The notes under the pieces are model-generated. The model was not told the origin of the DNA, ran no database searches, and worked only from the letters and a program-made list of their open reading frames with translations. Shown here one piece after another: positions 10,823-43,728 of a stretch of DNA of 43,728 nt. Position 1 is the stretch's first letter, and the number at the start of each line of letters is the position of its first letter. Source of the DNA: a virus. Made by a program: the position numbers and the translations under genes. The stretch lies in IMG/VR virus record IMGVR_UViG_3300017917_000276, positions 1 to 43,728 of that record; one strand, given 5' to 3'.

Positions 10823-13099
10823 ATGAACTTTAAAGACATGTTAGAAAAGTTAAGCCTACTAAGTGAAGCTACTAAAGAAACACCGACAGGTAAAATACAC
10901 AAAGCAGAGCCCGGTGGTTATGGTCGTAAGTTTGACACCGATGAAGAAGGCGAAGAAAAGAAAGCAGCTAAAGCAGATGCTCCCAAACGTGGTCGCGGTC
11001 GCCCTAAGAAAGGTGCTGATGATTCAGGAGAAGTTAAGAAGTATGACTTTAGTGCGTTTGGTGTTAAGCATGGTAAAGATGTAAAACTACCAAAATATGA
11101 CAAGAGCAAAACTACTAAGCATAGTTTAAAAGAATATTTTGATGATTTAGATAACGCACTAAATGAAATGGCTCAACCTAATGCTATTCCTGTTGTAAGC
11201 AAGCAAGGTTCTACCCAACAAACAGGTGCAGGATTTGTTCATATTGATGATACAAGCCCAGCTGGTAAAGCAATGAGCGATGCTTTAGGTAAGTTAGCGC
11301 AACAGAAAAAAGCACAGATTGTAGTTCCTACACAAGGTCAGCAACCATCAGCAACCTCAGGTGGAGCAACAAATCAACCTGCTATGGCTGAAGAAGGTGA
11401 AAAGTGGATTCAAAAAGCAATTAAGCACCCGGGTTCTTTTAGTGCTAAAGCTAAAAAGGCAGGCAAGAGCGTAGCAGCATTTGCCAAAGAAAAAGAACAT
11501 GCACCAGGTACATTGGGTAAACAAGCCCGATTAGCCCAAACGCTGCGTAAACTTAATAAAGAAAGCATGGCAGCAGAAGCAGACATGCCCCCGCATGATT
11601 CATTAGCTAGTCCTATGACACTAGAAGGCAAAGGTGAAAAGCCAGACTTCTTGGACTTAGACAAAGACGGCAACAAGAAAGAGTCAATGAAGAAAGCAGC
11701 ACAAGACAAAAAGAAAGTTAAAGAAGGTATGGATCACAGACTAAAAGCAGCCCGTCATGCTGGAAAAGCACATGCTCTCAGTAAAGAAGGGTACAACTGT
11801 AAGTATGACGATATGGAAGAAGCACGTAGCTACCATGAAGGATATAAAGAAGGTCTGGATGAGTGCTACGGTCAAATGCCTATTCAAGGTTATGTTGGCG
11901 AGACAACACCACCGGCAACAGTTCCTGGCATGGCAAATCAAGCAGCGAGACAACCTGCGATGGAAGATGATGTTGAAGAAGGCAATGCTTTCACAGCAGC
12001 ACTAGCTAAGACACCAAAAGGTGGTAAGTTCAGTGTTGGTGGCAAGACATTTACTGACAAGACGGATTATGATGCTAAAGTAAATGAAAGTCCCTTTGCT
12101 TTTGAATCATGGGATAATCAACTACAGTCTTTATTAGAAAGTAAAGAAGAAGTTGCTGAAGGTATGACTGTATCTATTAGCAAAGGTCAACAAGGTGCTC
12201 CTGATTCAGTATCAGTATCAGCACAAGACGCAGAAGCAGACCAACTACTATCATTAATTAAATCTGCTGGCCTAGGTCTATTTGGTGGAGAAGAACAACC
12301 AGCAGCTTCTAGACCAATGTCTCTACAACCAGCAGACGGTGAACAAGGCGCAGAAGAAATTGGCGTAGTTGGCGACCATGATGGCATGATGGACTTAATT
12401 AAGAAAGTTACCGGTGGTTCAGTAGGACCACAAGGTGGCGAAATCTCTGCTGACCATGACTATGAAGAAGAAGGCGGAGAAGAACATGAACATGAGCACA
12501 CTGATGAAGAAACATGCAATGAATGCGGTATGTATGAATCAGAATGTGGTTGTGACCATGAGAAAGTTGATGAAGTTGAGTCAGAAGACCAAATGACTTA
12601 TCAAGTTGCAGAAGATAATCCTCCTGACAGCGGGGCAGCAGAAGAGGAAGAAGAAATACAAGATACAGCACAAGCAAATGCAGCCGGCGCAGCATACAAG
12701 CCCAAAGATGATGTAGATGAGGGCGCTGGTGGTCCAGAAGCAAGTGAAGAGCCTGTTAAACAAATGACTTCTGAAGAATCTAAGTCAGAAGAAGATGACC
12801 ACGCTGAAGAAGCTGGAGAGAAAGTCACTAAAGATATCGAGTATGATGATAAGAAAGACAAGAAACTTGACGAATGGGCAAATGAGGCAGGTAAAAAAGG
12901 AACAGATACATCCTTTGAACAAGATATTGATTATATGATGAATATAATCACAGGTGGTTTGAACAAGAAGAAATCTACCGGTCAAACAACTATCCCTGTT
13001 ATTGCAAGCCAATTAGGCAGACAAGTAGCACGTGAAACAACTGATATCAACGAATCAACTGATGACGTTGCTGCATGGAAAAAATTAGCAGGAATTTAA
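10823..13099 (+). CDS. Large modular head protein with AT-hook and Cys-rich motif
   Basis: This 758-residue, strongly charged protein starts MNFKDMLEKLSLLSEATKE, with L-S-E at 13-15 as a likely prohead-protease site. An AT-hook-like RGRGRPKKG follows at about 56-64. Later come a Lys-rich module (GSFSAKAKKAGKSVAAFAKE, about 205-225) and DFLDLDKDGNKKES, an EF-hand/dockerin-like calcium loop near 275. An ETCNECGMYESECGCDH cluster near 565 may bind zinc. A very acidic stretch precedes a C-terminal helix ending AAWKKLAGI. This resembles the modular scaffold/internal head proteins of aquatic T4-like phages. DNA condensation in the head is a reasonable inference. It is followed by a strong terminator. 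Confidence 0.75.
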   Translation: MNFKDMLEKLSLLSEATKETPTGKIHKAEPGGYGRKFDTDEEGEEKKAAKADAPKRGRGRPKKGADDSGEVKKYDFSAFGVKHGKDVKLPKYDKSKTTKHSLKEYFDDLDNALNEMAQPNAIPVVSKQGSTQQTGAGFVHIDDTSPAGKAMSDALGKLAQQKKAQIVVPTQGQQPSATSGGATNQPAMAEEGEKWIQKAIKHPGSFSAKAKKAGKSVAAFAKEKEHAPGTLGKQARLAQTLRKLNKESMAAEADMPPHDSLASPMTLEGKGEKPDFLDLDKDGNKKESMKKAAQDKKKVKEGMDHRLKAARHAGKAHALSKEGYNCKYDDMEEARSYHEGYKEGLDECYGQMPIQGYVGETTPPATVPGMANQAARQPAMEDDVEEGNAFTAALAKTPKGGKFSVGGKTFTDKTDYDAKVNESPFAFESWDNQLQSLLESKEEVAEGMTVSISKGQQGAPDSVSVSAQDAEADQLLSLIKSAGLGLFGGEEQPAASRPMSLQPADGEQGAEEIGVVGDHDGMMDLIKKVTGGSVGPQGGEISADHDYEEEGGEEHEHEHTDEETCNECGMYESECGCDHEKVDEVESEDQMTYQVAEDNPPDSGAAEEEEEIQDTAQANAAGAAYKPKDDVDEGAGGPEASEEPVKQMTSEESKSEEDDHAEEAGEKVTKDIEYDDKKDKKLDEWANEAGKKGTDTSFEQDIDYMMNIITGGLNKKKSTGQTTIPVIASQLGRQVARETTDINESTDDVAAWKKLAGI

Positions 13100-13195: not shown

Positions 13196-16100
13196 ATGGC
13201 ACAACAGAATATTGATTTCGGTTCATTCCCGGATGACCCATCGGCAGATGCGATAAGAACCGCATTTAGTAAAGTACAGAATAACTTCAACGAACTATTT
13301 CAGGCTACTACAGGTGCATCAGTTACGTCAGTTAACAGATCCCAGGGCGCAGGTATAACCGTTAATAGTTCTGTAGGCAACGTTATTGTCAGTGCTAATA
13401 TAGCTAATGTAACTGTATCATCACCTAACCTTATTTTTGGTACAAGTCTAGGAACTCTTTCAAGCACATTAGTTTATCCATCATCTACAAATACTCTATA
13501 CATCGTTGTTCCAAATACTTTCTCTATTGGCAATTTAGTTTCATCAGGTAATGTATCAATTTCGAGCAATTTAACTGTTACTGGTGTGACTACATTGGGG
13601 AATACAGTTAGTGCAAACTACTTTATTGGTTCTGGTAATAATTTATCTAATATTCAAGGTGCCAACGTTACAGGTCCAGTTGCGACGGCTAACGTTGCTG
13701 GCACGGTTTCACAAAACGCTCAATCTAATATTACAAGTGTAGGTACACTAACATCATTAGATGTAAGTGGAAATTTAACATCAGGTAATGCTAATTTAGG
13801 TAATGTTGCTACAGCAAATTACTTTATAGGAGATGGTTCTAATTTAACGAATTTGGCCGGATCCAATGTAACCGGAGTTGTAGCAAACGCTAATTACTCA
13901 GCATATGCAGGCAATGTAACAAACGCAGCACAACCAAATATAACTAGCGTGGGTACTCTTACTAATGTAAGTGTAAGCGGTAACGCCAACGTAGGTAATT
14001 TAGGTACAGCCGGGTTAATCACAGCTACTGGTAACATCACTGGTGGTAACTTAAACACAGCCGGGTTAATCACAGCTACTGGTAACATCACTGGTGGTAA
14101 CTTAAACACAGCAGGATTAATTACTGCTACTGGTAATATCACTGGCGGTAACTTAGTAACAGGTGGCGCAATTAGTGCAACAGGAAATGCTAACGTAGAT
14201 AACTTGGGTGCAACTGGTGTATACGCAACTACTCTAAGCGCAACAGGTAACGCTAATGTAGGAAATATAGGTGCAACAACATTTGTTGGTAACTTAACTG
14301 GAACTGGTAATAGTAACGTTGGAAATTTAGGTGTTACTGGTGTATATGCAACAAATTTAAGTTCTACAGGTAATGCAAATGTTGGCAACTTAGGTACTGC
14401 TGGGTTGATTACAGCTACTGGTAACATTACTGGTGGTAATATAACAACGGGCGGAAATTTAAGTGTAACTGGTAATGCAAATATTACTGGTAACTTATCT
14501 GTAACTGGAACTATTAACGCAGGTAACGTTACAGTAGACCAAATTTCTAACGGCACATCAGTTGTAGATATAGTTGGCGCCGGCGGCAATGTTACTGTAA
14601 CAGTAGGTGGTGCAAGTAATGTATTAACGGTAACATCAACCGGTGCTAATCTATCAGGTACATTTAGTGCTAGTGGCAACAGTAACGTTGGTAATTTAGG
14701 CACAGCAGGACAGATAACAGCAACAGGGAATATTCAATCTAGTGCTTTCCTAATAGGCGCTAATTTGTCAATAAGTGGTAATGCTAATATAGGCAATATC
14801 GGTGCAGCGTTACACGTTGGTAACATAAGCGGAACCGGTAATAGTAACGTAGGTAACTTAGGTGTTACCGGTGTGTACGCTACTAGTTTGAGTGCAACCG
14901 GTAATAGTAACGTAGGTAATTTAGGTACAGGTGGTGTAATTACTGCTACTGGAACAATCACCGGTGGCAATCTAAGCACGGGTGGTACATTAAGCGTTAC
15001 TGGCAATGCTAATATTGGTAACGTGGGTGCTACAACCTTTGTTGGTAACTTATCCGGGACTGCAAGTATTGCAACTGTAGCAAATCATGTTACCGATCCT
15101 AGTCAATCAAACATTACTAGTGTTGGTAATTTACTTGGATTAACAAGCAACGGTGTAGTTAATTTCAACAATGCGACAAATATCGCATTAGCAAACGCTA
15201 ATGTTATTCGTATAGGTGGCGGCACATTACAGCAAGTACTTGTAAGTGACGGCTCAGGTGGGGTTCAGTGGCAAAGTTATTCAGGTACACCTATTGCAGG
15301 TAATGTGACAGAAGTTCAGTTTAATCTTAATGGTACAGCGTTTGGTGCAAGTCCGAATTTTACATTTAATAATTTAAACGATACGTTATTTGTTTCTAAC
15401 TTAACAGGAACATTTGCTAGCGTAACTGGCAATGCTAATGTAGGTAATCTAAATTCAGCAGGAACAGTAGTTGCTAGTGGAAACATTAACGGCGGTAATT
15501 TAGGTACAGGCGGTAGAGTCAGTGCCGCTACAATTAGTGCTACTGGTAATGCTAACGTAGGTAACTTAGGTACTGCTGGATTGATTACAGCTACCAGTAA
15601 CATCACTGGTGGTAACTTGGTAACAGGTGGTCAAGTAAGTGCTACAGGTAACATCACTGCTAATTACTTTATAGGTAACGGTAGTCAATTAACTGGTATT
15701 GATGCTACGCAAATTCAAAACGGTACTGCCAATGTAAGAACATTTAATAATGCAAATGTTACAATAAGTGCCGCCGGCAACGCAAACGTAGTTGATGTGA
15801 CTGGCACCGGAGCTAATGTCACAGGAACATTAAGTGTAAGTGGTAATGCTAATGTAGGTAACATTGGTGCTACTAATGGTGTATTCACCACAGTGACTGG
15901 TACTTTAGCTACTGCTGCTCAACCAAATATCACAAGTACAGGTACATTAACGTCATTGTCGGTAGCTGGCAACGCAAATATTGGAAACGTTGGTACAGCA
16001 GGATTAATTACTGCTACTGGTAATATCACTGGCGGTAACCTAGTAACAAGTGGACAGGTAAGTGCTACTGGTAATGCTAACGTAGGTAACTTGGGTGCAA

Positions 16101-35672: not shown

Positions 35673-36587
35673 ATGGCAACAAAGAAAAAAGCGTCAGCTA
35701 CACAAGAAGCGGCACAACAAGTAGCTGCACAAGCAGTTCCTGAAACTGCAACAGTTCAAGCTCCAGCAGCACCTGAACAACCACAACAAGGTCAAGTACA
35801 AGTCAACGTTGACTATCTACGTACTACCCGAGTACACATCGCAATGCCATGCTATGGTGGTATGCTAACTGAATCTACATTCATGTCTTTTATCAAGTGG
35901 GCAAACACCGCCCGTCAACTTGGTATTGACTGGACATTGGAAACAATGGTTAATGAGTCATTGATTAGCCGAGCACGTAATACATTAACTGCTAAGTTCT
36001 TGGACATGCCTGATGCTACTCACTTGTTCTTTGTTGACGCAGACATTGGTTGGGAACCATGGCACTTGTTAGTTCTATTGAACCGTGACGTAGATGTTAT
36101 TGGTGGTCTATACCCAATGAAGACTATGCCAATCAAGTGGGTTGTTAACGGATTCGAAGGTGCTGAACAAGGTCCTGACGGTCTACAAGAAGTATCTAAA
36201 GCAGGTACAGGTTTCTTGTTAATGAAGAAGCACGTATTTGAAAAGATGAAGTCTCACCCTGCTGTTAAGCAGTATAAGAACGATATCGGTTTAGATCCCA
36301 AGTTCGACCAACACTTAAAGACATACTTTGATACAGCAGTTCGTCAGAATCGTTACTATTCAGAAGACTGGACTTTCTGCGAAAACTGGCGTGACTTAGG
36401 TGGTAAGATTTGGGTTGATACACGTGTTCTATTACGTCACAGTGGTAGCTATGTGTTCTGTATGGAAAATCAACAACATCTATTGAACACAATTGGTCCT
36501 ATGTATGAGCAGGAGCAGAAGGCAAAACAACAAGCACAGCAAGTTGTACCAGACGCTAACGGAAACGTTACATTAAAAATCTCTTAA
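35673..36587 (+). CDS. GT-A-type glycosyltransferase-like protein
   Basis: This 304-residue protein has an Ala/Gln/Pro-rich disordered N-terminus (1-45). A Rossmann-like domain follows, with TRVHIAMPCYGGMLTESTF, ETMVNESLISRARNTLTAKFLDM, and THLFFVDADIGWEP carrying a D122-x-D124 metal motif. GTGFLLMKKHVFEKM and a YSEDWTFCENWRDLGGKIWVDTRV acceptor/catalytic region come next. This matches GT-A glycosyltransferases often encoded by aquatic T4-like phages. The acceptor could be DNA, capsid or fibre, and sequence does not tell. A terminator follows directly. Confidence 0.8.
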   Translation: MATKKKASATQEAAQQVAAQAVPETATVQAPAAPEQPQQGQVQVNVDYLRTTRVHIAMPCYGGMLTESTFMSFIKWANTARQLGIDWTLETMVNESLISRARNTLTAKFLDMPDATHLFFVDADIGWEPWHLLVLLNRDVDVIGGLYPMKTMPIKWVVNGFEGAEQGPDGLQEVSKAGTGFLLMKKHVFEKMKSHPAVKQYKNDIGLDPKFDQHLKTYFDTAVRQNRYYSEDWTFCENWRDLGGKIWVDTRVLLRHSGSYVFCMENQQHLLNTIGPMYEQEQKAKQQAQQVVPDANGNVTLKIS

Positions 36588-36731: not shown

Positions 36732-36750
36732 ATACTGATAAATACAGTAT
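36728..36750 (+). promoter_or_regulatory. Two overlapping late motifs, one in the loop of a start-codon hairpin
   Basis: GTAAATAC (36728-36735) and GATAAATAC (36737-36745) lie 9 bp apart. ATACTG (36732-36737) pairs with CAGTAT (36745-36750), placing ATAAATA in the loop and the first two bases of the ATG at 36749 in the stem. RNA from the second motif would start at the ATG. There is no ribosome site. Confidence 0.55.
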
Positions 36751-38278
36751 GAACTTAAAAGAACTTGATTCCTTCAAAATTTCCGACGCCATTAGTTTCC
36801 ACGACACACTGAATCCAAAGCTGTGGGCAGGCAATAAACTACGTCCAGAAGTTAAAAAACAATTAGAAGCAATCGCAGAAGATTTCCTACAAGAAATGGG
36901 AATCCATGATTTAGATGTTAGGGATATCACTATATCAGGTTCTAATGCAGCATATAGTTATACAGACCATAGTGACATAGACTTGCATATTCTAGTGAAT
37001 ATGAAAGATTTACCTAACACTGAAATATACAAAGAACTATTCAACGCTAAAAAGTCAATGTATAATGATTCACATGACATTACAATTCATGGTGTTCCTG
37101 TTGAAGTTTATGTAGAAGATGCCTCAGAACCCGCAGTAACATTAGGTGAATACAGTATAAAAAATGACAAGTGGTTGCGTGTTCCCACAAAGCGTAGGGC
37201 AAACTTTGATGAAAAGTCTACTAAGTTGAAATACGACAAACTATTAGACATTGTTCAAAGAGCATTAAAGTCCAAAGACTTGGGTAAGATTCAAAAAGTA
37301 TTGAAGAAAATCAAGCAATATAGACAAGCAGGATTAGACAAAGGTGGTGAGTTTGGTCCTGAAAACTTAGCATTCAAAGCATTGCGTAGTCAGGGTTGGA
37401 TCACAAAACTATACGAATTACGAGACAAATTACATAGTGAAGAATTGACTATTGAAACTATGTATCAGCAACCTGACAAACTAGACAAACCCACACCTAC
37501 AATGCACGATGTAATGAAGAAGCATAAAGTTACATTACATCATGTCATGGATCAATTATTGCAGGGTATCAAGGTAGAATCTGAGCATACTTCAGACGAA
37601 CAAACAGCTAGAGAAATAGCACTAGACCACTTAAATGAGAATCCTAACTATTATACAGAGTTAGCAAAAGTTGGGTTAGAAGAAAAGATTAATCCAGAAT
37701 TAGCACAAGCTGACTTCTATGCTGAAAAAGATGTAAATATTGAAGGCGTAGGTCCACTAAAGTTTATAGCAAAAAATCTATACACCACTCGTCCTCCACA
37801 ATTTAGAATTGATGTATTGAAACCAGACGGCGAAAATATAGGTTATTTTAGATTCGTAATCTTAGATTATGAACCTGAAACTAAGAAACCTAGATTTCAA
37901 ATATTTTCTAAATTCAAAGAAAAGAAAGATCCTTACATCATCGGTGGCAATGTCAGTGTGAGTAGAGCATATCAGAAAAAAGGTATTGCTAGTGCTGTTT
38001 ATCAGTGGGTCAGAAGCATGGGCAATGATATTAGACCTAGCCCTACACAGACTGATGCAGGAAAAGCCATGTGGCGTGGGTTTGAAAAGCATCAGACAGT
38101 TGAAGAATCAGCATCAGGATACATTCCTAGCTATGCTGAAAAAGACGATCCTCGTTTTAAAATGGCATTGACAGTAGATATCAAACCTGATACCATGATG
38201 AAAAACGCTAAAAAGTTAGGTAGCAAAATCAGTCGTGCTGGAATACCCCCAACACTCAAACCCTCAGGCAAATTCTGA
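36749..38278 (+). CDS. Nucleotidyltransferase-GNAT fusion, probable modular head cargo
   Basis: The 509-residue protein begins with a Pol-beta-type nucleotidyltransferase domain. ITISGSNAAYSYTDHSDIDLHILVN (near 60-85) gives the GS...DxD motif, and PVEVYVED supplies a third acidic residue. A helical basic region (about 150-235) and a recurrent phage module (VESEHTSDEQTAREIALDHLNENPNYYTEL, about 275-305) follow. A GNAT-like acetyltransferase domain comes next, with VSRAYQKKGIASAVYQWVRS near 405-425. The C-terminal module is SGYIPSYAEKDDPRFKMALTVDIKP. Such module mixing is typical of large proteins of aquatic T4-like phages. An effector carried in the head is my inference. The target is unknown. 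Confidence 0.78.
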   Translation: MNLKELDSFKISDAISFHDTLNPKLWAGNKLRPEVKKQLEAIAEDFLQEMGIHDLDVRDITISGSNAAYSYTDHSDIDLHILVNMKDLPNTEIYKELFNAKKSMYNDSHDITIHGVPVEVYVEDASEPAVTLGEYSIKNDKWLRVPTKRRANFDEKSTKLKYDKLLDIVQRALKSKDLGKIQKVLKKIKQYRQAGLDKGGEFGPENLAFKALRSQGWITKLYELRDKLHSEELTIETMYQQPDKLDKPTPTMHDVMKKHKVTLHHVMDQLLQGIKVESEHTSDEQTAREIALDHLNENPNYYTELAKVGLEEKINPELAQADFYAEKDVNIEGVGPLKFIAKNLYTTRPPQFRIDVLKPDGENIGYFRFVILDYEPETKKPRFQIFSKFKEKKDPYIIGGNVSVSRAYQKKGIASAVYQWVRSMGNDIRPSPTQTDAGKAMWRGFEKHQTVEESASGYIPSYAEKDDPRFKMALTVDIKPDTMMKNAKKLGSKISRAGIPPTLKPSGKF

Positions 38279-38323: not shown

Positions 38324-39277
38324 ATGAAAATCAATCAAATCATCAGTGAAACTACAACAGCGGGCGCAGTTGCCCCTGTATCTCAGAGTTTTGTCAAGAT
38401 GCAAACACGCAATCCTGTCGTAAGCAGCAAAAAGGGTAATAATCTGTTGACTGGAAAAGTGACTAACAAAAAGTACGCAAACAGCGTTAACGAAAGCAAA
38501 ATGAAAGACCTTGTAATGGATCTAAAGTCAGGTCCAGATGGTTTGACAGACGAAGAATTCAAAAAGAAATACGGCAAAACAAAACAAGAAATGCGTAAGG
38601 CTATGAAAGAAAAGCCTGAGCCAGTTCAGAAAGTTGAAGAAGCAAAACTTGAAGAAGATGATATCATTGTATTGCCCGGCGGAAAAAGTAAACGCAAGAC
38701 AGGTTTTGTTGCCAAAGGTCAAAGTCGTGTAGACCACGAAGTTGAAATGGCACGTAGCGATATATTAGCCACTATCAAAAACGCTAAAGCACTATACAAA
38801 CTATTACAACATAGATCCGAAGACGAAGGTCTTGAGGGTTGGGTACAAGAAAAATTAATCAAAGCTAATGATTATCTAAACGCAGTCAAAGAATACTACG
38901 ATGAAAAGATGATGCAGCAAGAAGGTCTAGGTAAAGACCTAAAGCGTTTAGCTACCGGTAAAGATGTAAAAAGTCGTGCCGGACAAGAAATAGCCAAAGC
39001 ACAGCAGGCTAGTATTACAGGTGATAACAAAACAGCACATAAACATTTCAAGCGGTACGATAAGTTAGATAAACTAGCAAACAAAGAGCAGGTTGACGAA
39101 AAAGCTGTAAGCAAAGCACAACAAAGATTCATGGGTATGGTTCATGCTGTTCAAAAAGGTGAAATGAAAGCTCCTAGCAAAGAAGTAAGTAAAGTAGCTA
39201 AAGGCATGAGTAAGAAAGCAGGACATGATTATGCTTCAACTAAGCACAAGGGTCTACCAGAGAAAGTTAAGAAATGA
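38324..39277 (+). CDS. Lys-rich internal-head-type protein
   Basis: This 317-residue basic protein starts MKINQIISETTT, with I-S-E at 7-9 fitting the capsid-targeting/prohead cleavage signal. Modules then follow: MKDLVMDLKSGPDGLTDEEFKKKYGKT (about 60-87), a helical ARSDILATIKNAKALYKLL region (about 143-195), and a C-terminal KAQQRFMGMVHAVQKGE ... SKKAGHDYASTKHKGLPEKVKK segment (about 263-317). The last is recurrent in phage head proteins as I know them. High Lys and helical content suit DNA condensation in the capsid. It overlaps the following 665-aa gene by ATGA. Confidence 0.75.
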   Translation: MKINQIISETTTAGAVAPVSQSFVKMQTRNPVVSSKKGNNLLTGKVTNKKYANSVNESKMKDLVMDLKSGPDGLTDEEFKKKYGKTKQEMRKAMKEKPEPVQKVEEAKLEEDDIIVLPGGKSKRKTGFVAKGQSRVDHEVEMARSDILATIKNAKALYKLLQHRSEDEGLEGWVQEKLIKANDYLNAVKEYYDEKMMQQEGLGKDLKRLATGKDVKSRAGQEIAKAQQASITGDNKTAHKHFKRYDKLDKLANKEQVDEKAVSKAQQRFMGMVHAVQKGEMKAPSKEVSKVAKGMSKKAGHDYASTKHKGLPEKVKK

Positions 39278-41271
39278 GCAATATCATTAAAGGTTTAAAC
39301 GAAGGCCGTAATGACCGTGACTCATGGGATAGTAACATGCCCGGTTATCAAGGTGATTACGGTGGCGCACAAAACTTTGGTCGTAGAAAGCGTGATTGGG
39401 ACGAAAATGACGCTATTGATGCTAGACTAAGACAGCAACATGCTGAAAAAATGGAATACGAAAAATCAGGTAAGTTCTGGTTGAAGTTAAAAGACAGTCA
39501 ACGTCATTTACCTGCAGGCCCTTTTGTTGGTAAACAAGCAGCCAACACAGCCGCATTAGAATTATTAAAGCAACAACCTGAACTTAAAGGTAACTTGTTA
39601 ATCACTGCGTATGGGCCAGACGAAACAATGGAAGAATCTAAAGAACAAGAGTTTGGCGGTGATTGGGATGAGAAAGTTAAGCGCCTAAAACAAATGGCAC
39701 AGCAAGGCGAACGCAAAACTGTTTGGGATCCTGTCAAGCGTGTGTATAAAACTGTTCCTGTTAATCCACAGAAAAAAGAAGGTGTGGCGGAAGGCGGCAA
39801 TGCCTTTATGCCCGGAATTGAAAATACACCTGAATACAAAAAGGGGTTTGCAACCGGTAAATTACCTGTGCCATATCCCGAAGGTTCTCAACAATATGTT
39901 AATTACTATAAAGGCGTAATGGACAAAGCAGGACCCAAAAAAGTAGCAGAAGAAAAATGTCCACATTGCGGTGGACCAATGTTCAGCGATTTATTATTAG
40001 CCGAAAAGAAAGATGCCTGCTATCACAAAGTTCGCAGTCGCTACAAAGTATGGCCCAGTGCATATGCCTCTGGTGCGTTAGTTCAGTGCCGTAAAAAAGG
40101 TGCCGCTAACTGGGGCAACAAGAGTAAAAACGAAGGTGTGGCGGAAGGCGACAGACCTGGTATGAAGGATGGACGACCGTATAGTGATCCATTACGCCGT
40201 CATCCTGGCAACGATTCATATATGACTCCGGAATATTTGATCCAAAAGTATCAAGATGAATTAAAGAAGATTGCGGCTGGTCCATACAAGCGCACAAAAG
40301 ATGTGGCAATGTACAAAGCAAGAATCGCCAAACTACAGAAACAGCAAGGTGTGGCGGAAGAGAAACTAGATGAAAAGTGCTGGCCTGGTTACACAAGAGT
40401 TAGAGGTGTGCCTGCCGGTGCCCCCGGCAGCTGTAAAAAGAAAACGAGCGAAAGTTCAATATTAAAAGGATTACTTGAAGCAGAAGAAATAGATGAAAAT
40501 CTAAGAAAGTGGTTTAAAGAGAAGTGGGTACGATTTGGTCCCGATGGTAAAATTCGTGGCGCATGTGCTAGAGGTGATGACAGTGAGGGTAAGCCAAAGT
40601 GCCTACCACAAGCAAAGGCACATGCACTAGGTAAGAAAGGTCGTAAATACGCTGCTAGTAAAAAGCGTAGAGAAGATCCTAATCCAGAACGTAAAGGTCC
40701 TGCAAAAAATGTAGCGACTAAAAAGAAAACAAACGAGAGTTTTACAGATTTAGAGGAATCATTCAATATGAAAATCAATGAATTAGATATGGTCAATGAA
40801 GATTGGCAAAAAGTAAATCGAAAAGACAAGACCAGTGGAATGAGTCGTAAAGCTGTAAAGGCATACCGTCGTGAGAATCCAGGCTCTAAACTACAAACTG
40901 CTGTCACAACAAAGCCTAGCAAATTAAAGAAAGGCTCTAAGGCTGCAAAGCGCCGTAAGAGTTTCTGCGCTAGAATGAAGGGTATGAAAAAGAGCCGCAC
41001 AAGTGCTAAGACAAAGAGAGATCCAAATAGCAATATTAATAAGGCATTGCGCCGTTGGAACTGTGAGTCTATTGAACAGATGCAAGAATTAATTATGATT
41101 GCTGAAGCAAAAATTGCTGAGGCAAAAAATGCCAAACAACAAGCTGCGATTGCTATCTCTAAAAAAAAGGCTAAAGGATTAAACGAAGCTAGAGATATTT
41201 GTAATGTTTGCGGACAGACACCTTGTAACTGCACACATGTGAGTTCAATCATGGAAGGAATAACAAAATGA
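39274..41271 (+). CDS. Modular Lys-rich polyprotein-like head protein with GVAE linkers
   Basis: The 665-residue protein starts MSNIIKGLNEGRN, with L-N-E at 8-10. It consists of modules separated by GVAE at 170-173, 288-291 and 359-362. Module 1 has a GKFWLKLKDSQRHLPAGPFVG motif. Module 2 has CPHCGGP and DACYHKVRSRYKVWPSAYASGALVQCRKKGAANWG. Module 4 has KCWPGYTRVRGVPAGAPGSCKKK and WFKEKWVRFGPDGKIRGACAR. Module 5, from Met499, has KAYRRENPGSKLQTAV, RRKSFCARM and a C-terminal CNVCGQTPCNC. Several of these occur as separate proteins or in other orders in aquatic phages. Cleavage at the linkers by a prohead protease is my inference from the hydrophobic-x-Glu pattern. Confidence 0.77.
   Translation: MSNIIKGLNEGRNDRDSWDSNMPGYQGDYGGAQNFGRRKRDWDENDAIDARLRQQHAEKMEYEKSGKFWLKLKDSQRHLPAGPFVGKQAANTAALELLKQQPELKGNLLITAYGPDETMEESKEQEFGGDWDEKVKRLKQMAQQGERKTVWDPVKRVYKTVPVNPQKKEGVAEGGNAFMPGIENTPEYKKGFATGKLPVPYPEGSQQYVNYYKGVMDKAGPKKVAEEKCPHCGGPMFSDLLLAEKKDACYHKVRSRYKVWPSAYASGALVQCRKKGAANWGNKSKNEGVAEGDRPGMKDGRPYSDPLRRHPGNDSYMTPEYLIQKYQDELKKIAAGPYKRTKDVAMYKARIAKLQKQQGVAEEKLDEKCWPGYTRVRGVPAGAPGSCKKKTSESSILKGLLEAEEIDENLRKWFKEKWVRFGPDGKIRGACARGDDSEGKPKCLPQAKAHALGKKGRKYAASKKRREDPNPERKGPAKNVATKKKTNESFTDLEESFNMKINELDMVNEDWQKVNRKDKTSGMSRKAVKAYRRENPGSKLQTAVTTKPSKLKKGSKAAKRRKSFCARMKGMKKSRTSAKTKRDPNSNINKALRRWNCESIEQMQELIMIAEAKIAEAKNAKQQAAIAISKKKAKGLNEARDICNVCGQTPCNCTHVSSIMEGITK
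39779..39793 (+). repeat. 15-nt dispersed repeat, copy 1 (others at 40133-40147 and 40346-40360)
   Basis: AAGGTGTGGCGGAAG occurs three times without change and encodes the GVAE linkers of the 665-aa protein. Copies 1 and 2 match over 19 nt. It uses GTG and GCG codons although the surrounding genes mostly use GTT/GTA and GCA/GCT, so identity is not explained by protein constraint alone. Confidence 0.9.
40133..40147 (+). repeat. 15-nt dispersed repeat, copy 2
   Basis: This is the identical AAGGTGTGGCGGAAG at the junction between modules 2 and 3 of the 665-aa protein. Confidence 0.9.
40346..40360 (+). repeat. 15-nt dispersed repeat, copy 3
   Basis: This is the identical AAGGTGTGGCGGAAG at the junction between modules 3 and 4 of the 665-aa protein. 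Confidence 0.9.
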
Positions 41272-41387: not shown

Positions 41388-41444
41388 ATGGATCAAGTGT
41401 GGGAATTCTATTGGCAATACAAAGGTGCCCCTCCTAACAGATGA
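41388..41444 (+). CDS. Possible 18-aa leader-like peptide
   Basis: An ATG directly follows the upstream stop (TAAATG) and the frame encodes MDQVWEFYWQYKGAPPNR. Its stop overlaps the amidotransferase start (ATGA). It bridges two genes that would otherwise lack a close ribosome site, so it may serve to pass ribosomes on. It is too short to support a function, and the call rests on the junctions only. Confidence 0.35.
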   Translation: MDQVWEFYWQYKGAPPNR

Positions 41445-42169
41445 AACCTGTATTAGTCTTAGAACATCAATTGCCCGAACGTTTGGCATACTTAGGTACA
41501 TGGTTGAATAATCATGGCATACCCTATGTAGTCTTTAACGCTGACATTGATAAGGTATTCCCGGATAGTATAGAACCTTTCTCCGCACTAGCAGTCATGG
41601 GTGGCGGCATGAGTGCTAACGACCCATTACATACCAGCCGACAAGCAGAAATACTCATACTACAAGCAATGCGTAATGATATACCCGTTATAGGACATTG
41701 CTTGGGTGGTCAACTTATGAGTAAAGCATTGGGCGGCAAAATATCAAGTTCTCCTAAGCCTGAAATAGGATGGCAACCAATCAAGTATGTTAATGAAAGT
41801 GCAAAAGAATGGTTCGGTGAAAATCCTACTGATACAGTGATTCATTGGCACTATGAGAGTTTTAGTATCCCAGAAGGTGCTACATTATTAGCAAGTAGCG
41901 ATGCATGTCCTAATCAAGCATTCAGTATAGGCAAACATTTAGCTATGCAATTTCACATAGAAATTGACGAAAACAAAGCAAAATCTTGGGTAGAAGATTT
42001 AGATGCTAAATGGGATCAAGCTGTTCAGGACTATGATACTGTGCAAAACAAAGAAGAAATTTTGAACGGCATAGCCCTTAACTTAGCAAAACATCAAGCC
42101 ACTGCTAATTCTATCTATACAAACTGGCTCAAAACAACAGAATGGTATGAAGTACTGAAAAATAGATAA
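41441..42169 (+). CDS. Class I glutamine amidotransferase-like protein
   Basis: This 242-residue protein has the complete class I GATase triad. C87 is in GHCLGGQ, and H172 and E174 are in MQFHIEID, with the supporting motifs AVMGGGMSAND and HWHYESFSIP. Stand-alone members release ammonia from glutamine or cleave gamma-glutamyl compounds, and similar domains occur in GMP synthase. No synthetase partner is seen nearby, so a gamma-glutamyl hydrolase-like activity or use of a host partner is possible. It is coupled to the preceding tiny frame. The Dps gene follows with its own promoter. Confidence 0.88.
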   Translation: MKPVLVLEHQLPERLAYLGTWLNNHGIPYVVFNADIDKVFPDSIEPFSALAVMGGGMSANDPLHTSRQAEILILQAMRNDIPVIGHCLGGQLMSKALGGKISSSPKPEIGWQPIKYVNESAKEWFGENPTDTVIHWHYESFSIPEGATLLASSDACPNQAFSIGKHLAMQFHIEIDENKAKSWVEDLDAKWDQAVQDYDTVQNKEEILNGIALNLAKHQATANSIYTNWLKTTEWYEVLKNR

Positions 42170-42195: not shown

Positions 42196-42636
42196 ATGCT
42201 TTCAGATAACTTAAAGGTCTTGTTGGCCAGCACACAAGCATTTGCTATCAAAAGTCAGAACTTTCACTGGAACGTAGAAGGTCGTGACTTCCCGCAATAC
42301 CACGCATTCTTTGATACATTGTACGGTGATGTATCAGAAACTATTGACAGAATTGCTGAATACATTAGAATTCTAGGTCACTATACCCCTGGTAGTTTAA
42401 GTCGCTACGCTGAGTTATCTATTATACAAGACCAGACAAAAATTCCACGTGCTGAGTTAATGTTTACCGAAGCACTACACGACTGCGAACAATTGGGTCA
42501 ACTGGCTCTTGCTATGTTCAATGAAGCGACTCAAGAAAATCAACAGGGTATTGCCAACTATATGGCTGAACTACAAGACTTGTATGGTAAGAAGGCTTGG
42601 TTTATACGCAGTGTTTTAAAAAAAGAACGTGAATAA
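42196..42636 (+). CDS. dps: Dps-like ferritin with complete ferroxidase site
   Basis: This 146-residue four-helix protein begins directly with LKVLLASTQAFAIKSQNFHWNVEGRDFPQYHAFFDTLYGDVSETIDRIAEYIR. H24, H36, D51 and E55 have the same spacing as the E. coli Dps ferroxidase residues H51, H63, D78 and E82. Dps dodecamers oxidise and store iron and protect DNA from peroxide. The basic N-terminal tail that E. coli Dps uses to bind DNA is absent, so DNA binding is less likely than iron detoxification. It has its own late promoter and masked ribosome site. The next gene overlaps its stop by 1 nt. Confidence 0.9.
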   Translation: MLSDNLKVLLASTQAFAIKSQNFHWNVEGRDFPQYHAFFDTLYGDVSETIDRIAEYIRILGHYTPGSLSRYAELSIIQDQTKIPRAELMFTEALHDCEQLGQLALAMFNEATQENQQGIANYMAELQDLYGKKAWFIRSVLKKERE

Positions 42637-42827
42637 TGAAAGCCAAAGAAATCTTCAAGGGATTTAAAACTTTTACTGCAAAGATATTAGTTAAGAATCC
42701 TAATTACTCTGTTCACATGGATGCGATTGTAAACGCTAAAGATGTGATACAGGCTCGCCAACTTATTAAATTACAGTACGGTGTAGATGACGGACGAATC
42801 GGTGCTATAAAAGAAGTAAAACAATGA
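42636..42827 (+). CDS. Small hypothetical protein
   Basis: This 63-residue protein is coupled on both sides, by TAATG with dps and ATGA with the following gene. It reads MKAKEIFKGFKTFTAKILVKNP, then VHMDAIVNAKDVIQARQLIKLQYG and VDDGRIGAIKEVKQ. The beta-strand/helix pattern is like a small ferredoxin-like fold, with a weak likeness to the 39-aa protein at 41268. I recognise no function. Confidence 0.7.
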   Translation: MKAKEIFKGFKTFTAKILVKNPNYSVHMDAIVNAKDVIQARQLIKLQYGVDDGRIGAIKEVKQ

Positions 42828-43728
42828 GAGCCTCAGAATTTATTACAGAAGAAGCTAAAGCAGTAAAAGCTAACGGACTGTCTTTGAAATATGCATTTAA
42901 TGACAATGCATTAATAATGAAAGCCTTTGATCCTTCTACTAAAAACCCATTGGCTTATGTTAAGTTTGTCAAAGAAAAACAAGAATTGTATCCGCAGGAT
43001 CTTTGGGTGAATGATGAATACCGTAATAAAGGTATCGCAAAGACAATGTATGATACGTTGAAGTCTGAGGGGTATGTCATCAATAGAAGTCACGACCAGA
43101 CTAAAGCTGGTGCAGGATTCTGGGATAAGCATCGCGGTGAAGATGCATATGTATGGGAAGAAGAAGTCATTGACGAAATGCCATTACCCGCTGACTGGGA
43201 TCCTCAGCAAATGCGTCAAGGTGCAACTACATTCAAGTCACGTTTACAGTATGCATTAGATAGAGCAAAGAAACTAGGCACCGGTTCTAGTCGTGTTGCT
43301 ACTATCATTGAATACGAAGGTCGTCCTACAGTTTTAAAGATTGCCAAGAACCAAAAAGGTCTAGCACAGAATAGTGTCGAAGCTGATATCCTTAGTGATG
43401 GATATGCAAGTCAATTAGGAATACTAATCCCTATCATTGACTATGATGAACAGAATCGTGAACCAAGTTGGATTCACACTGAAATGGCACAGAAAGTAAC
43501 TGAAAAACAATTATGTCAATTGATGAAGTGTGATAACTTAAATCAATTGATTAACATGGCTTATGCTATTCAAGGTAGAAAGATATACGGTAACTATCAG
43601 AATTTCGCTAACCATTTAAAACAAAAAGGCAAGAGTGAACAAGATATTGACACAATGACCGACTATGCAAATATATTAGCAGACTTGAATAGTTCATTTG
43701 ATGTTGAGTTAGGTGACTTTGGTAGAGC
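42824..43728 (+). CDS. GNAT plus kinase-like protein with capsid-targeting-like leader, 3' end missing
   Basis: The frame starts at an ATG overlapping the previous stop and runs off the window after 301 codons. MRASEFITEEAKAVKANG has I-T-E at 7-9, close to the leaders of T4 internal head proteins. Residues about 18-115 form a GNAT-like domain with DLWVNDEYRNKGIAKTMYD (acetyl-CoA loop) and HDQTKAGAGFWDKH. From about 150 there is a kinase-like N-lobe: SSRVATIIEYEGRPTVLKIAKNQKG with a candidate ATP-lysine in VLKIAKN, VEADILSD as helix C, and a WIHTEM hinge. The catalytic-loop region would lie beyond the window. A co-injected host-modifying enzyme is an inference. Confidence 0.7.
   Translation, partial: MRASEFITEEAKAVKANGLSLKYAFNDNALIMKAFDPSTKNPLAYVKFVKEKQELYPQDLWVNDEYRNKGIAKTMYDTLKSEGYVINRSHDQTKAGAGFWDKHRGEDAYVWEEEVIDEMPLPADWDPQQMRQGATTFKSRLQYALDRAKKLGTGSSRVATIIEYEGRPTVLKIAKNQKGLAQNSVEADILSDGYASQLGILIPIIDYDEQNREPSWIHTEMAQKVTEKQLCQLMKCDNLNQLINMAYAIQGRKIYGNYQNFANHLKQKGKSEQDIDTMTDYANILADLNSSFDVELGDFGR

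Follow-up and report, generated by a model that had tools for sequence, protein, structure and literature searches.

The analyzed window is a 43,728-base fragment from IMG/VR, and a gene runs off its end. We consider it fairly probable that this gene encodes a polyprotein of effectors that is targeted to the capsid and would be cut after E9 and E118, yielding two injected host-modifying enzymes. The ORF (42824..43726, plus strand) has an ATG start and 301 codons and is open at the window end, with no stop codon. Its product begins with the leader MRASEFITE, which is followed by a GNAT domain of about 100 residues and then by a kinase-like domain cut by the window end, confirming what the initial annotation had observed. 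Complete relatives, for example one of 329 aa (L005), have an identical architecture. The sequence-based parts of the proposed mechanism are the leader, the domain identities, the shuffling of modules, the conservation of cleavage-type junctions and the protease gene of a sister phage; packaging, cleavage, catalysis and targets are the parts that we infer.

The leader and its genomic context

The genes of the window are collinear with 78.6-121.7 kb of the sister phage contig G007 (364 kb), so the source phage is in all likelihood a jumbo myophage of the same kind. Like T4, G007 encodes an S77 prohead protease and a gp23-type capsid protein in its head module, next to portal-like and scaffold-like genes that were called from position and appearance only. 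A search of the 43.7-kb window found neither the S77 protease nor gp23, because the fragment matches a region of G007 away from the head genes. At the locus collinear with that of the window, G007 has a gene for the leader and the kinase-like module, with the GNAT missing. Just upstream of our ORF lie a Dps/ferritin-like gene (42196-42636) and a glutamine amidotransferase gene (41441-42169); the Dps-like gene has a counterpart of 85% identity in G007, there also directly 5' of the kinase-module gene. No RNA family was found near the ORF and no tRNA in the window.

The leader (residues 1-9, 42824..42850, plus strand) is capsid-targeting-like, with a predicted cut after E9. We searched the window and 13 sister contigs for the pattern M[RK]x1-3[EDQHKSTR][FI][ILV]xE near the N-terminus and found it in 60 of 2069 ORFs, compared with 1.1 expected and a maximum of 4 in 200 residue shuffles, a count that excludes a chance origin. 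In 50 of the 60 ORFs, the pattern was located exactly at the called start codon, and in the sister contigs unrelated domains stand behind it. When 82 ORFs from a 49-kb stretch of T4 were searched in the same way, only IPII and IPIII were found, both starting MKTYQEFIAE. The first ten residues of IPIII are enough for packaging, residues 4 and 7 of the T4 leader serve targeting and residues 8 and 10 processing, and gp21 cleaves after L/I-x-E (PMC9026906). In the window leader, the positions equivalent to residues 7, 8 and 10 are occupied by Phe, Ile and Glu. Thus, the resemblance to T4 internal-protein leaders that had been noted from MRASEFITE was borne out, both by the IPII/IPIII match and by the enrichment. 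The window protein has the short N-terminal leader ending in L/I-x-E that marks T4-type internal proteins, and as with IPII and IPIII, a leader of about ten residues ending F-I-x-E is common to diverse cargo.

Other phages place different leaders before the same module. Alishewanella phage Slicko01, which has been isolated, carries the kinase module behind MKIYNLYSTLLE, and this phage has its own leader version in common to eight consecutive genes (8 of 193 ORFs, 0.06 expected; record 85888-91558, L175), among them the kinase module and an ART-PolyVal gene. By its sequence, the run is an apparent injected-effector operon. By eye, several others of the eight show ART-like FHST/YHST/YHGSP motifs. 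In XacN1, MKQVRLSQFLSE precedes the same kinase module. Both Slicko01 and XacN1 encode an S77 protease and gp23. The leader therefore tracks the genome while the module tracks its own history, as expected of a targeting tag. The main text of the XacN1 virion proteome paper makes no mention of the kinase-module ORF. In cyanophage S-SCSM1, an NMNAT enzyme was detected in virions by mass spectrometry (PMC9602691), and we found that this enzyme carries a leader, starting MKSFLQFLKE/A (the slash marks the cleavage-type position).

The leader might instead be an N-terminal element for localization, stability or translation of early or late proteins that stay in the cytoplasm, and the lack of a leader of this type in distant relatives of the kinase from Salmonella phage Munch and E. 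coli phage 121Q would agree with such a role. We regard it as highly improbable, however, since the leader agrees with the T4 signal where positions have been mapped by experiment, phage-specific leaders occur in phages with an S77 protease, and a leader-bearing enzyme is present in cyanophage virions. Furthermore, the processing half of the signal recurs inside these proteins, as described below, which a function confined to the N-terminus does not predict. We thus retain a packaging signal as the preferred reading of the leader, and it is from the leader only that we infer transfer of the window protein into the host with the DNA. The initial annotation had likened this to T4 Alt. The comparison proved apt in that ADP-ribosyltransferase-like domains of related phages have the same leader type or share a chain with the same GNAT. 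T4 injects Alt, which modifies host proteins, and by analogy the GNAT and the kinase may be injected too.

The GNAT and kinase-like modules

Residues 10-113 (42851..43162, plus strand) form a GNAT-type acetyltransferase module, as judged from the Pfam matches of sister proteins, Foldseek and alignment A2. The acyl-CoA motif is RNKGIA at residues 67-72; one branch of the family has RNRSIA instead. The window copy matches PF13508 with an E value of 0.0012, under the cut-off, but sister GNATs score over it: L019 with PF00583 (23.0, cut-off 20.7) and L013, which also has a second GNAT-like module, with PF13508 (34.4, cut-off 27). The full-length AF2 model has a mean pLDDT of 62 and is poor over the linker and the kinase N lobe, and was therefore used for the GNAT fold only; its best Foldseek PDB matches were GNATs, the first being AAC(3)-Ia (E 4e-3, probability 1.0). 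The module shares with GNATs of the AAC(3)-I, YhhK/PanZ and RibT folds a compact core and an RxxGxA-type motif, with fold probability 1.0, and differs from them in being short, at about 100 residues. These data uphold the acetyltransferase-like domain proposed from the letters of the sequence.

The kinase-like module (residues 119-301, 43178..43726, plus strand) is truncated by the window end; alignments A1 and A3, an AF2 model, Foldseek and phrog_4301 were used to assign it. The window holds GSSR at residues 154-157, Lys172, Glu186 and the catalytic Asp298. The DxG with the metal-binding Asp and the C-terminus, roughly 30 codons in all, lie beyond the window end and were read in about 30 relatives. 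In alignment A3 (32 members, 26-87% identity), the GSxR, the Lys, the alphaC Glu, the hinge Glu and the catalytic-loop Asp are invariant, and DxG is present at 90% or more. Modeled alone, the module reached a pLDDT of 89.4, and its top 50 Foldseek PDB neighbors were all protein-kinase-like folds. The best of them, Kae1-Bud32, was found at E 1.5e-3 with probability 1.0 and TM 0.42; because no PDB match reached E 1e-3, the kinase fold is assigned from how consistent this list is and from the conserved residues. Neighbors in the viral fold library included close relatives as well as phage proteins annotated as kinases. The initial annotation had proposed a kinase-like lobe and had looked to the downstream sequence for its catalytic and metal-binding motifs; the relatives possess these residues, and the fold is not lacking.

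Sequence searches placed the module in no significant family of Pfam, NCBIfam or PADLOC, and the kinase profile, run against PDB sequences, gave nothing meaningful. The BREX kinase PglW was rejected as its identity, the match being far under its cut-off. A search for cellular homologs yielded four distant loci only, in Bacteroidota and Bacillota, a result that points to no host. A viral contig and a MAG from Bacteroidota contained very long proteins with repeated kinase-like domains (L106, 3947-7609, and L204, from 3950), and the L204 protein also has a poly(A) polymerase domain and a weak ParB match.

The module resembles the protein-kinase-like superfamily, as represented by Bud32/Kae1 and phage kinases, in its N-lobe, the fold of the catalytic core, the Lys, the alphaC Glu, the catalytic Asp and DxG. 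Unlike that superfamily, it has neither an activation segment nor a C-terminal helical subdomain after DxG, complete relatives stopping about 12 residues beyond this motif, and its catalytic loop reads D-x5-N and not D-x4-N. The protein could thus be packaged and processed with a pseudokinase or a binding domain (for example ATP- or target-binding) as its second module, a reading to which the altered loop, the replacement of its Asn by Ser or Thr in the most distant members, a DxG in place of DFG and the absent substrate-binding subdomain all lend themselves. It seems to us quite unlikely, given that the Lys, the alphaC Glu and the catalytic Asp stay invariant and DxG stays at 90% or more over 26-87% identity, and that canonical D-x4-N and DYG motifs are found in the distant standalone relatives from phages Munch and 121Q. 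Moreover, the kinases of polyvalent proteins have lost the same C-terminal subdomain with the active site kept (PMC5512222), just as this module lacks the subdomain and keeps its active-site residues. Kinase activity of the module is plausible but uncertain. Polyvalent-protein kinases are further marked by an insert between the catalytic His and Asp, a conserved Gln in the last N-lobe strand and a Glu N-terminal to strand 2 (PMC5512222); on inspection of A3 by itself, no catalytic His or such insert was evident.

Module shuffling and the sites between modules

In sister phages the GNAT occurs alone, the kinase occurs alone, and either is fused to ART-like, GH19, deaminase or other modules. The window protein carries VIDE/MPLP at residues 115-122, between the GNAT and the kinase, and we predict an internal prohead-protease site here (EVIDE, residues 114-118, 43163..43177, plus strand) with the cut after E118, before MPLPADWD. 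The residues right after VWE in this copy (EE/EVIDE) are a poorer fit, and VIDE/M is the clean site; its counterpart in L005 reads VLDE/M.

We collected junctions at which a module found elsewhere directly behind an N-terminal leader is internal. Among 28 non-redundant junctions, whose contexts are partly related by descent and were selected by clustering thresholds that we set, [ILVM]xE lies exactly at P3-P1 in 21, whereas other offsets within 12 residues give 0-6 of 28 and the general background is 1.8%. At the offset with 6 of 28 lies a second, equivalent site that belongs to the kinase module. Glu occupies P1 in 25 of the 28, and the P4 Phe/Ile found in all leaders is kept in just one. For the kinase module, the residue directly ahead of it (P1) is Glu in all 30 distinct contexts and P3 is I, L or V in 29 of 30, while P2 is variable. 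Because P3 and P1 are kept and P4 is lost, the junctions retain the processing half of the T4 signal without its targeting half. Passive leader remnants of gene fusion were ruled out as the origin of these sites, since remnants should decay evenly, whereas here the loss affects P4-P9 and spares P3 and P1.

These observations bear on whether the GNAT and the kinase act as one protein. The initial annotation had envisaged a single injected enzyme with two chemistries, and a leader that packages the protein and is removed, leaving an uncut GNAT-kinase chain to be injected as a bifunctional enzyme, would fit the several phages that hold both modules in a single chain (L004-L010) as well as T4 Alt, which remains a single chain except for end trimming (PMC9026906). 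We nevertheless find this unlikely: the modules are found separately and with other partners, and a cleavage-type site is kept before the kinase whatever precedes it, and at other junctions also. That the modules occur apart, each behind its own leader, and that L/I-x-E is kept at the junction make two separate products likelier, so a single enzyme combining two chemistries is probably not what the gene encodes. The earlier interpretation as a whole is therefore partly supported.

In the mechanism that we prefer, the nine-residue leader would serve as a T4-like capsid targeting sequence that brings the protein into the core of the prohead. An S77 (gp21-type) prohead protease, cutting after the short motif L/I-x-E, would remove the leader after E9 and split the chain at VIDE/MPLP, after E118. 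Two products would be left in the head, the GNAT (about 109 residues) and a minimal kinase (about 210 residues), which would be ejected with the DNA and may modify host proteins early in infection, as Alt does in T4.

The components of such a system are known from T4 internal proteins and polyvalent proteins, and what we describe is a variant that combines both themes. T4 internal proteins are single units, in contrast to the shuffled enzyme modules with L/I-x-E at their joints, known here from sequence. Polyvalent proteins likewise shuffle GNAT, kinase, ART, nucleotidyltransferase and other domains (Iyer et al. 2017, PMC5512222) and are predicted to be injected with DNA (PMC5512222), and the window protein has two shuffled conflict-type domains in one chain, GNAT and kinase, where polyvalent proteins have two or more. 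It departs from them in its short leader of T4 type and in the prohead-protease-like sites that separate its modules. Where processing of polyvalent proteins is discussed, it is for the most part attributed to peptidase domains of their own. Many members of the present family are single modules behind a leader.

More broadly, it may be that, among jumbo and T4-type phages, one class keeps its injected effectors as polyproteins that a lineage-specific leader packages and that are dismantled in the head by the protease, whose own site is copied between shuffled modules as the cargo grows by gene fusion; we judge this generalization to be evenly poised. If it were true, leaders and L/I-x-E junctions would be a sequence code listing the injected proteins of unannotated jumbo phages and would reveal new acetyltransferase, kinase and ADP-ribosyltransferase-like effectors. 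It would also show injected cargo evolving through gene fusion, join T4 capsid targeting and polyvalent proteins by one processing step, and provide a precedent in nature for using a single tag to load several enzymes into a phage head. We found no prior description of such polyproteins in the open-licence literature, which is not proof of novelty.

Neighboring candidates for packaging or processing

Other genes of the window may encode packaged or processed proteins. The product of 38324..39277 (plus strand) has the leader MKINQIISE and a DUF3008-like C-terminus, the latter from a weak Pfam match, and its DNA matches ORF93 of cyanophage S-SCSM1, which is listed as a virion protein; it is probably co-packaged. 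The next gene (39274..41271, plus strand, 665 aa) is rich in [ILV]xE sites, with 16 compared with 6.5 in shuffles, and none of 1000 shuffles had as many. These sites include GVAE repeats and one module junction, MVNE/DWQKVNRKDK before DUF6321, and from this pattern the product is a probable processed virion precursor.

The gene at 36749..38278 (plus strand) encodes nucleotidyltransferase-like, DUF5661 and GNAT-like parts and resembles polyvalent proteins. The leader pattern is absent from it, its C-terminal GNAT is related to our protein (E 2.6e-9), and its nucleotidyltransferase part has a weak match to PADLOC PDC-S09. In the tail-gene region, a 758-aa ORF (10823-13099) has several [ILV]xE[AGS] sites, and its product is perhaps another processed precursor.

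With the gp23 model, matches to the first part only were seen at 13507-13854 (plus strand) and 200850-201257 (minus strand) of G007, at 151294-151416 of XacN1, with an internal stop, and at 36243-36326 of G002. These short gp23-like ORFs are either pieces of capsid protein within otherwise unrelated small proteins or decayed copies.
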